From a virus: a DNA stretch of 32,585 nt. Of this stretch, positions 2,778 to 32,368 are shown one piece after another. The stretch covers positions 1 through 32,585 of IMG/VR virus record IMGVR_UViG_3300049216_000176; one strand, written 5' to 3'. The notes beneath the pieces were generated by a model. The model was not told the origin of the DNA. It saw only the letters and a list, made by a program, of their open reading frames with translations, and made no database searches. The number at the start of each line of letters is the position of its first letter. Position 1 is the first letter of the stretch. The position numbers and the translations under genes were made by a program.

Positions 2778-3330
2778 ATGTTTCTGGATTCGCAAAGAAG
2801 TTGATGTCGCCGTCCAGGGGAAACCGCTTCCCCTTCGTCAAATCTTCAACCCACGGGAAGATCGTCGATTCTGGGGGCCATTGTACCGGCTGGGCCGGTT
2901 TCGAGCAACCCCAACCGAAATCCTCGTACTCCGGGTACGGCGGCGGCTCGTCGGACTCGAATTTGACGTTGTACTTCTTTCGCACTTCGTCGAAGTCGAT
3001 GTTTTTGAATTTCGTGTACGCAGCACCCCAATCGTCGATCTCTTGCTGGGTGATTTCGTCGGTAAGGATCGGGCAGCGGAAGCCTGGGCCGGTGCAACCC
3101 AATATCTCACGCCATGTTACGCATTCCGGGTCGGTGTTGTATTCGCCCGGTTTGACGGGATCGAGGCCGAAGTAAATTGTCTTCCAGGCGGCGATTTCTT
3201 CTTCCGTGATCTCCGTGGTGCGGAACTGCCGCAGGAGTCGCATTTGGATTTCAACATCTTGCAGGTGTTCTACGCTGAAGTGACCTGTAACTTCCTGGCC
3301 GTCGAACTCGAACTTTTCTGTTATTATCAT
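2761..3330 (-). CDS. Unknown acidic phage protein
   Basis: The product has 189 residues and starts at ATG 3330 after AAGGAGGAATGAAAC, an excellent ribosome site. It is acidic and aromatic, with many Glu, Trp and Pro. Two similar helical segments are visible: TEITEEEIAAWKTIYFGLDP at about 39-58 and TDEITQQEIDDWGAAYTKFK at about 90-109. These suggest an internal duplication of an E(I/E)xxW helix. Three Cys are spread through the chain without a metal-site pattern. It is the first gene of the leftmost minus-strand operon and faces a divergent promoter region. No family is recognised. Confidence 0.75.
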   Translation of the reverse strand: MIITEKFEFDGQEVTGHFSVEHLQDVEIQMRLLRQFRTTEITEEEIAAWKTIYFGLDPVKPGEYNTDPECVTWREILGCTGPGFRCPILTDEITQQEIDDWGAAYTKFKNIDFDEVRKKYNVKFESDEPPPYPEYEDFGWGCSKPAQPVQWPPESTIFPWVEDLTKGKRFPLDGDINFFANPETYGPRS

Positions 3331-30350: not shown

Positions 30351-30665
30351 TCAAATACCCGATTCGATCAAACCGATCAGCTTGTCCCGCTGGAGGGTCG
30401 AGGCGTTGGGATTCTTCCGCCGCAGGGGAGCGTCCGGGCGAAGGGACCGGGTGTAGGCGATCTTTTCCTTCAGGTAGCTTTTGATCGGGGCGTCCTTCAA
30501 GGCCCGGATCGTCCGACCCTCCCGAAGTTCGTACCCGATAAACATCTTCGGCTTCGATTCGATAATCAGGATGGTCCTGCGAACCGGGTGGGTGTGGTGG
30601 CCCTGATACCAGAACCGGGCGACCGGCAGGTTGCGAATGGGTTGATATTTCACGATGGCTCTCAC
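30351..30665 (-). CDS. Small conserved phage protein (GYELREG type)
   Basis: The 104-residue protein starts at GTG 30665, overlapping the CYTH stop as GTGA. It contains ARFWYQGHHTHPVRRTILIIESKPKMFIGYELREGRTIRALKDAPIKSYLKEKIAY, a pattern I associate with small Sm/SH3-like phage proteins that have F.YQG.H.HPV.RT...E..... .GYE.REG......APIKSY. The C-terminus is basic. The function is unknown; nucleic-acid binding is plausible. It is the last gene before the long hairpin. Confidence 0.7.
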   Translation of the reverse strand: MRAIVKYQPIRNLPVARFWYQGHHTHPVRRTILIIESKPKMFIGYELREGRTIRALKDAPIKSYLKEKIAYTRSLRPDAPLRRKNPNASTLQRDKLIGLIESGI

Positions 30666-31078
30666 TTTTTCAAGATTTCGTTCAAGAGGTCCGTTGCGTA
30701 ACGGGCATCTCCCAGGAGTTTATTCGAGAACCGAGTATCTGTCAACGCCACTCGATATAGCAAGTTGTCTTTAACTATGCCGGGAATCGAATCGGGTTCC
30801 ATCTGGCCTTCCGGTAGTTCGACCTCGGCGACGGCGATATAAGTGTCGCCCTTGTAGTCCTTGAAGAAGTCGCATTCCCACAGGTGCTTCCCGCACGGGA
30901 ACTCGTAGCGAATCTTCTCCAATTTGTTCAGAGCGATGTTCCAAAGATCGTCGAAGTCACGCTTGTCGAGTTTGTTTTCGATTTCCACACACCGACCGCC
31001 AGTGTTCACCTTCATCGTGAAGTAGTATCCGCCCTTGCCCCCGTTGGCGTACACCGGAACGGACTTCCTCACACGCAC
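30662..31078 (-). CDS. CYTH-domain protein (triphosphate tunnel enzyme), 5' end displaced
   Basis: CYTH enzymes act on triphosphates such as thiamine triphosphate, inorganic triphosphate or ATP. The chain has YYFTMKVNTGGRCVEIENKLD..DF..LW......LEKIRYEF......WECDFF...... .AVAEVELPEG....P and YRVALTDTRFSNKLL, a nearly complete CYTH domain. GTG 31078 is the first legal start codon in frame, but the homologous frame continues upstream to 31198. There it encodes PTENERKFVINAK, including the ExExK signature (E-N-E-R-K) that defines the family. No ATG, GTG or TTG precedes that part in frame. The missing start with the same PTENER codons lies at 31901, beyond the HNH gene. The gene therefore looks split by an insertion and may be inactive. 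Confidence 0.8.
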   Translation of the reverse strand: MRVRKSVPVYANGGKGGYYFTMKVNTGGRCVEIENKLDKRDFDDLWNIALNKLEKIRYEFPCGKHLWECDFFKDYKGDTYIAVAEVELPEGQMEPDSIPGIVKDNLLYRVALTDTRFSNKLLGDARYATDLLNEILKK

Positions 31079-31180
31079 CGTGATGCCCCGTGTGGCGATC
31101 AGGTAGCCTTGTGATATTTCGTACTTCTGGGTCGCCCCGTTGGAAACGGTTTTCTCGCACTTGGCATTGATTACAAATTT

Positions 31181-31198
31181 TCGTTCGTTTTCAGTGGG
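31181..31198 (-). repeat. Downstream copy of the CYTH PTENER segment
   Basis: Minus-strand CCCACTGAAAACGAACGA here is repeated at 31881-31898 as CCGACCGAAAACGAACGA. The last 12 bases are identical, and both differences fall at third codon positions of Pro and Thr. The copies lie exactly 700 bp apart and bracket the HNH gene. The HNH stop codon is inside this copy. Confidence 0.85.
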
Positions 31199-31841
31199 AA
31201 TTGGACACCATCCTGTTATTTTTGATTTGTCGTATAGTTACAGCAAGTGCCATCATTTCTTCATAGGTAAAGAAATGATTCTTCACGATGTTACACTGTT
31301 GACAACAAGGAACAACATTCTTCAACGTATAGCCAACCTCATTATTCTTTCGATCAAGCCCACAACCAGTGGGGTTCAACACTCCGTCGCAGTAATGGCA
31401 AGGCTGCAACAAAAGTGTCTCGAACGACTCTAACGAAATATCCCATACTTCTCCCGATTTGGCCGCTCTACGTTTGGCGCTATTCCATCGTTCTTTCGGG
31501 ATTGTTGCTCTTGTGCGAACTCTCTTCTTTTCGCACTCAATACAATATCTTCTCCTGATTGCTTTGGCTGGCGAATGCGTATTGAATTGCTCAATAGGCT
31601 TCAGTTGTTTGCAATCTTTGCATATACGCTGACCTGATTCGTTTGCCGACTGAATATAGCATCTTCGACTGCAATGCGAAACCTCTTCTGATCTTTTCCT
31701 GGATACAGAAAATTTCTTGTTACAAAAATTACAAGTCAATTCTACTTGGTTTGTCTTTTTGTACAGGTTGTAGCAAGCAACGTCACAAAACCGTTTGCTT
31801 GTCGTGATCTCTTTGTTGCAGTTTTTGCATTTGTTTTCCAT
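31191..31841 (-). mobile_element. HNH homing endonuclease with N-terminal zinc fingers
   Basis: The 216-residue coding gene encodes a site-specific DNA endonuclease. The N-terminal 105 residues contain several treble-clef or zinc-finger pairs: CKNCNKEITTSKRFCDVAC, CNFCNKKF...HCSRRC, and CKDCKQLKPIEQF...YCIEC. The HNH core is CHYCDGVLNPTGCGLDRKNNEVGYTLKNVVPCCQQCN, ending KNHFFTYEEM. The DNA is clearly AT-richer than its surroundings, as expected for a mobile gene. No ribosome site is seen; TTGTAA, a 16-bp spacer and TATAAT end five bases before the ATG, so it appears to have its own promoter and a leaderless message. Only about 50 bp of the 700-bp insert is non-coding, too little for a self-splicing intron core. 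Confidence 0.92.
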
Positions 31842-31880
31842 GCTGTATTATACGCAGCAACAGAAAATTTACAAATCAAA
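31842..31880 (-). promoter_or_regulatory. Sigma70-type promoter of the HNH gene
   Basis: On the minus strand TTGTAA, a 16-bp spacer and TATAAT are followed by ACAGC and then ATG 31841. Transcription would begin at or very close to the start codon. Confidence 0.6.
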
Positions 31881-31901
31881 TCGTTCGTTTTCGGTCGGCA
31901 T
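31869..31901 (-). pseudogene. Orphaned 5' end of the CYTH gene
   Basis: ATG 31901 is preceded by CCGGGGGTTGAA, a good ribosome site much like that of the CHASE3 gene. The frame reads MPTENERFDL and stops. Its first seven codons match the PTENER part of the CYTH frame 700 bp downstream, so this is the original start of that gene, cut off by the insertion. The sequence after the break (TTTGATTTGTAA) still loosely resembles the CYTH continuation (AAATTTGTAATC). Confidence 0.75.
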
Positions 31902-31921: not shown

Positions 31922-32368
31922 TTACTTCAGACCTCGCAGGATTTGCTTCAGATGGTCGGCATCCTCACGGCTGTCCTGAATCTGGCCGTCCAAGAACACG
32001 TCGATCCACCCGCCGTTGACGGGATCGAGGGACGCCAGTTCTTGAGCATCTTTTTGACGCTGTACATAGTTCCTGACCACTTCTTCTTCCATCGTCAAAG
32101 CGGCACGAATTATTTCAACCGGGTCGAAACTGATCGTGAAGTCGTTTCGCTGCACCGTCGGCACGCCGCCCAATCCGACAATCAAGTCCGAGAAGGCCGT
32201 CACATGGGTCATTTCCGACGCCGCCGACTTCAGCAGCAGTTCCTTGTACTCGTGCGCATGAAGGCCCGTCACGAGGCTGGCGTTCGCCAGATAGAAGTGC
32301 AGGTGCTTCCACTCGTTCTTCAAGTCTTCATTCAACAAGCTAATCATTTTTTCCAGTGTCATCGCCAT
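31922..32368 (-). CDS. Ferritin-like (bacterioferritin-type) protein
   Basis: I use ATG 32368, after AGGAGACTGAAG; the open frame upstream is antisense or out-of-frame sequence of the next gene. The 148-residue length and the helical pattern (LEKMISLLNEDLKNEWKHLHFYLANASLVTGLHAHEYKELLLKSAASEMTHVTAFSDLIVGLGGVPT) fit a four-helix ferritin-like fold with an E-x2-H in helix 2 (SEMTH). Further Glu/His residues lie in TMEEEVVRNYVQRQKDA and in SREDADHLKQIL. It could store iron, protect DNA in the manner of Dps, or oxidise a small substrate. It lies 20 bp upstream of the displaced CYTH start, in the same operon. Confidence 0.8.
   Translation of the reverse strand: MAMTLEKMISLLNEDLKNEWKHLHFYLANASLVTGLHAHEYKELLLKSAASEMTHVTAFSDLIVGLGGVPTVQRNDFTISFDPVEIIRAALTMEEEVVRNYVQRQKDAQELASLDPVNGGWIDVFLDGQIQDSREDADHLKQILRGLK

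Follow-up and report, generated by a model that had tools for sequence, protein, structure and literature searches.

Free-standing HNH homing endonucleases, mobA to mobE, are known from T4-like phages, and in the cases of Aeh1 mobE in nrdA and T4 mobA in the topoisomerase gene the HNH gene is found within a conserved phage gene (PMC2988022). Likewise, non-canonical start codons have been described for E. coli infC and pcnB (AUU), Streptomyces sigR (GUC) and S. aureus cvfC1 (AUU) (PMC5472188, PMC13009471). When measured in S. aureus grown in poor medium, non-canonical starts reached roughly 10% of the AUG level (PMC13009471); such starts are repressed by IF3 (PMC5472188, PMC2268962). In the window, that is, the whole 32,585-nucleotide stretch of viral DNA analysed here (positions 1 to 32,585 of IMG/VR record IMGVR_UViG_3300049216_000176), an HNH gene of the homing type interrupts a CYTH triphosphatase gene at its 5' end. 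We consider it probable that the cassette carries a substitute start from which CYTH is made full-length, beginning at AUU and as a separate protein, and that an ATG copy further upstream is a relic. Homing-type HNH insertion is already known (PMC2988022); what appears to be new is a cassette ending in a replacement AUU start, together with the recurrent AUU/AUC starts described below. No described case of a replacement-AUU-start cassette was found in the open-access literature, a body that leaves out most subscription papers.

The locus resembles mobA to mobE in that an intronless endonuclease gene stands between phage genes, is patchily present among near relatives, overlaps with neighbouring genes in a manner compatible with translational coupling, and is accompanied by signs of co-conversion beside the site. 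Unlike mobA to mobE, the cassette in the window exchanges the codons with which its downstream neighbour begins, supplying a non-canonical start, and homing and a cleavage site are here putative. The Aeh1 mobE precedent, invoked in the preliminary description of this DNA, applies insofar as an HNH gene lies in a phage gene, but not with regard to the split: the Aeh1 mobE and T4 mobA cases leave two coding parts, whereas in the window it is the start of the gene that has been displaced, leaving a 10-codon relic and one full-length frame. With infC, pcnB, sigR and cvfC1 the locus shares an SD in front of a start that is not ATG, GTG or TTG and that is conserved across relatives. In contrast to these, it concerns a phage gene, and the start varies among relatives (ATG, TTG, GTG, ATT, ATC, CTG). 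An internal AUU start has reportedly been found in phage T4 gene 26.

Table 1. Features of the interrupted CYTH locus and of two further ATT-start genes; positions are those of the window unless a contig is named.
Feature	Position	Strand	Basis or remark
Next operon gene, 104 aa, function unassigned, conserved 3' of CYTH	30351..30665	-	ORFs in window, L002, L003
CYTH triphosphate tunnel metalloenzyme, 179 codons; ExExK E4, E6, K8 intact	30662..31201	-	profile, model and fold matches
EndoVII/HNH endonuclease (putative), 216 aa	31191..31841	-	PHROG 1035; 66% identical orthologue, same site, in L005
Cassette: HNH leader, HNH gene, SD-like site, replacement codons ATT-CCC-ACT	31193..31880	-	right edge from L005/L007 comparison, left edge from end of relic copy
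Proposed AUU start codon of CYTH	31199..31201	-	aligns with Met1 of relatives; ATT in insertion-free L003, L011, L015
SD-like AGGATGGTG, AGGA 9 nt before ATT	31206..31214	-	sequence; L005 counterpart AAAGGAG
Promoter-like TTGTAA-16-TATAAT before HNH, 10/12 matches	31847..31874	-	consensus scan only
Relic of original CYTH start (putative), 10-codon mini-ORF MPTENERFDL*	31869..31901	-	sequence; ATG-CCG-ACC as in empty L002, L007, L008
Ferritin-like gene, intact, upstream in operon	31922..32368	-	Pfam PF00210, E 5.9e-15
Apparent ATT-start genes of L003's phage: glutamine amidotransferase (I-CGIAGF), FmdB-like zinc-ribbon protein	L057:5769, L060:14505	+	

On the minus strand, the ferritin-like gene is followed by ATGCCGACCGAAAACGAACGA (31901-31881), the 216-aa ORF (31841-31191) and ATTCCCACTGAAAACGAACGA (31201-31181). 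The left copy, at 31901, reads ATG-CCG-ACC-GAA-AAC-GAA-CGA and the right copy, at 31201, ATT-CCC-ACT-GAA-AAC-GAA-CGA. The two starts are exactly 700 nt apart, 18 of the 21 positions are identical, and the 12 bases after codon 3 (GAAAACGAACGA) are common to both copies; the spacing of two PTENER copies and their 12 shared bases, already given in the preliminary description, were thereby confirmed on the sequence. That description had placed the mismatches solely at the third positions of the Pro and Thr codons, which is correct for codons 2 (CCG/CCC) and 3 (ACC/ACT) but omits the remaining one, at the third position of codon 1 (ATG/ATT). This change from ATG to ATT in the second copy is the key point missed by the first reading. 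When the 1-kb region was shuffled 500 times with dinucleotides preserved, 21 of the shuffles contained a 12-mer repeat, and the length of the repeat alone is only mildly unusual; that it is non-random follows from the same peptide lying in a coding frame and from the homologues. Continuation of the left copy past codon 7 (shared ATTTGTAA) was considered and rejected, the stretch fitting better as HNH leader, a similar leader being present in L005.

The inserted ORF can be assigned to the HNH/EndoVII sequence family: it matched PHROG 1035 (endonuclease VII) with an E-value of 1.6e-20, and tblastn returned annotated EndoVII/HNH phage proteins, the Pfam HNH score being under its cut-off. Close relatives of the HNH protein at other sites were not found in IMG/VR, weaker matches, covering the protein in part at 37-45%, were present in three related records, and a DNA-level similarity search of the phage collection gave no match. 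The GC content is 40.5% in the cassette and 36% in the first 14 codons counted from ATT, compared with 52-54% in the neighbouring genes; the low value fits a cassette that would have come from an AT-richer donor.

Filled and empty alleles of the site were found among relatives in IMG/VR (designated by L numbers). The closest is L002, which is 83% identical and lies on a phage contig of 532 kb; there the ferritin gene, CYTH and the gene after it follow each other without an insert and CYTH starts with ATG. Conversely, the L005 lineage has an orthologous HNH gene (66%) between ferritin and CYTH, at the same place as the window; L005, L006 and L022 are identical over the compared stretch. L007 and L008 are near-identical empty relatives of L005 and read ATG-CCG-ACC. 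Thus L005 can be set against L007 and L008, and the window against L002, the window and L005/L006/L022 being the only two independent filled lineages known. The uninterrupted L002, L007 and L008 bear out the claim that the gene was once intact and received HNH at its 5' end. The ferritin-like neighbour is also present in L002, L003, L005, L007 and L008, and pattern matches in L027, L037 and L039 were discarded as chance.

The start of CYTH in L005 reads AAAGGAGAATCCC-ATT-CCC-ACG-GAA-AAC-GAA-CGT, and between L005 and L007 mismatches within CYTH nt 1-42 occur solely at nt 3, 6 and 9. These three positions also distinguish the two copies in the window, with identical changes at the first two. The differences place the right-hand end of the mobile unit at ATT-CCC-ACN, just before GAAAACGAACG, and show that the cassette edge replaces the recipient's first three CYTH codons. 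This right edge was set by comparing filled L005 with empty L007; on the left, the cassette of the window begins where the relic copy stops, after CYTH codon 7, so that the relic was kept. In L005, the left edge falls within the last ferritin codons and no relic start remains. That L005 has the same ATT-CCC-ACN but no left copy supports the earlier claim that the downstream copy did not arise by target duplication; it was brought in by the cassette. L008 (3016-3042) differs from L007 at 11 positions in CYTH nt 16-42, a block in which it also departs from L005, and at none in the next 138 nt, a sign of local gene conversion beside the insertion site.

Flanked as it is by a 12-bp repeat, the 700-bp segment could in principle be an intron that splices itself out and so reunites the first copy with the remaining CYTH frame, and its fold is more stable than that of shuffles (z -3.7, from 20 shuffles only, for a single sequence and a coding stretch). 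However, the HNH gene takes up nearly the whole insert and continues into the downstream copy, and L005 lacks an upstream copy that could serve as the first exon. The preliminary description had called an intron improbable and suggested a ribozyme search; neither in the window nor in L005 did Rfam match a group I or group II core at gathering scores, and nothing relevant appeared at E up to 5. An intron is accordingly regarded as extremely unlikely.

The frame that begins at 31201 is a CYTH/TTM enzyme by its ExExK motif and modelled tunnel fold. The family profile matched the inorganic triphosphatase NE1496 (3TYP/2FBL) in the PDB with an E-value of 1.8e-8, and the AlphaFold2 model (mean pLDDT 90.7) gave NE1496 and AtTTM3 (plant TTM3) as top Foldseek matches; the Pfam CYTH model barely detects the family (a marginal match, one member only). 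NE1496, the best match by both profile and fold, likewise has ExExK within its first 8 residues, although its identity to the phage protein is about 26% in the structural alignment. E4, E6 and K8 are invariant. The first canonical start, GTG 31078, is downstream of the ExExK strand (residues 4-8), and initiation there would therefore remove the active site.

Insertion-free relatives also start CYTH at ATT. In L003 the sequence is TAGGAGATTTATCC-ATT-CCT-ACA-GAA, with an SD and with no in-frame ATG, GTG or TTG until codon 119-120; L011 (AAAGGACAATAAA-ATT) and L015 (TAAGGAGGTGTATT-ATT) likewise have ATT preceded by an SD. None of the three has a better CYTH start than ATT, and in all of them it comes with other second codons and without any trace of HNH. 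Apparent starts at ATC (L053, 3001) and CTG (L225, about 2916) are each preceded by a purine-rich SD. Between ferritin and CYTH, L011 additionally has a short extra ORF at 2836-3000 (MGIYAISIAAILYL...), the TAA of which is one base before ATT.

Non-NTG starts were counted at 7 of ~37 distinct CYTH loci; among 287 starts of related phages that had been checked against orthologues there were ~2 (Fisher p 4e-6, a rough value, the background having been obtained by a simple script and near-copies removed by eye). On a tree of CYTH sequences from which the start codon was left out, the ATT label needs 5 changes, at least 3 of which are forced by well supported branches. In the phage of L003, two further genes have ATT preceded by an SD, one for a glutamine amidotransferase and one for an FmdB-like zinc-ribbon protein, and in the former ATT is followed at once by the Cys codon of CGIAGF. 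This Cys is the N-terminal nucleophile in that class of glutamine amidotransferase, and the ATT start is thus fixed by the catalytic Cys2 directly after it. Taken from these sequences, AUU initiation in such phages seems hard to dismiss. For CYTH itself an SD, the lack of a better start and coding conservation from the ATT codon were all found, the SD-like site of the window (AGGATGGTG) being weaker than those in L005 or L015. Since insertion-free relatives start CYTH at ATT with an SD, a non-canonical start, named earlier as one possibility, is the best reading, in place of the dead enzyme or the HNH-CYTH +1 shift put forward as the main options.

The first of these options, in which the insertion removed the start and the remaining CYTH frame is a decaying pseudogene, would explain why no ATG, GTG or TTG precedes the ExExK strand, and AUU is a poor initiator in tested bacteria (PMC13009471). 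However, the frame is fully open and every invariant residue is kept; the dN/dS of 0.07 between the window and L002, and the 13 synonymous to 2 non-synonymous changes between L005 and L007, also argue against decay, although these figures span more than the time since insertion. Furthermore, ATT is used in insertion-free relatives, and one ATT allele is found in three contigs from different metagenomes. Inactivation is thus improbable: CYTH is probably not dead despite the insertion, and probably still under selection.

The HNH TGA (31193-31191) falls within the CYTH frame, the overlap being ~8 nt in the window and ~20 nt in L005, and in both CYTH is read one step (+1) out of phase with HNH. 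Ribosomes slipping by +1 close to the end of HNH could thus fuse HNH to CYTH. Still, UCC-CAC-UGA contains no recognised slippery site, the overlap is of unequal length in the two lineages, the fusion would bury the catalytic N-terminus, and the insertion-free ATT relatives have no need of it; such a frameshift is considered very unlikely.

Returning to the preferred reading, a free-standing EndoVII/HNH gene of the homing type has entered the phage CYTH gene at the 5' end, the end of its cassette bringing an SD-like site, ATT, CCC and ACN as the new CYTH start, with the upstream ATG copy left over from the recipient's original start. HNH and CYTH probably share a transcript, for which the promoter-like TTGTAA-16-TATAAT is a possible origin. 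Ribosomes would begin at AUU using the SD-like site, yielding fMet-PTENERKF..., probably weakly, and those finishing HNH nearby may aid CYTH initiation. On the basis of the S. aureus start measurements and the repression of non-canonical starts by IF3, low and IF3-sensitive CYTH expression would be expected.

Other causes of AUU starts were considered and rejected. An altered initiator tRNA was not supported, all Met tRNAs predicted by ARAGORN in four related phages having the normal CAT anticodon. IF3 is the factor policing start codons, and a phage-encoded IF3 with N- and C-terminal domains is present in L003's phage (L062 about 9312; G002:149312-149803) and in LR756511 (W01:325993-326478); as a general cause it was rejected, being limited to these two, the latter of which starts CYTH at ATG. 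A general AUU habit was rejected on an SD-codon tally, in which ATT was prominent only for CYTH and the two genes of L003's phage. Predicted tRNAs with anticodon CTA were seen in the phages of L002 (L124:11736-11826) and L015 (L083:10512-10586); these are possible amber suppressors, hinting at TAG recoding. The window itself has a tRNA-Thr (GGT) at 110-205 on the minus strand, which at 96 nt is longer than usual.

As to why the replacement start is ATT, two readings may be given: weak starts may be favoured in this family, the cassette donor having had one, or the recoding may shield the filled allele from its own enzyme. In the latter case ATT would be part of the homing element, CCC and ACN helping it to break the HNH target, and the allele of insertion-free ATT phages would be a former or a cut-resistant one. 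Both filled lineages have the same three third positions altered compared with empty sites, the first two identically, and ATGCCGACCGA is conserved at the DNA level in the divergent empty sites L002, L007, L008 and L012 as well as in the window relic. However, the ATT starts of L003, L011 and L015, with their other second codons and lack of HNH trace, the ATC and CTG starts, and the ATT starts in unrelated genes of L003's phage speak against it, so that weak starts may simply suit CYTH, and the two filled lineages may have a common edge by descent. This role for ATT, which would be compatible with translation from AUU, is possible, though on the unlikely side. A 'home-and-rescue' element, in which HNH cuts ATGCCGACCGA..., the recoded ATT-CCC-ACN of the cassette resists cutting and still starts CYTH from AUU, and insertion-free ATT phages carry the resistant allele, appears rather doubtful; if true, a homing element would protect itself by altering the start codon of its target gene.

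Standard gene callers take only ATG, GTG and TTG as starts, and CYTH would therefore appear truncated. A phage gene family with AUU/AUC starts in several lineages would offer a natural test of start-codon choice and of IF3 control during infection. An endonuclease delivering a replacement start may, finally, be one way in which a selfish insertion can strike the first codons of a gene without killing it.
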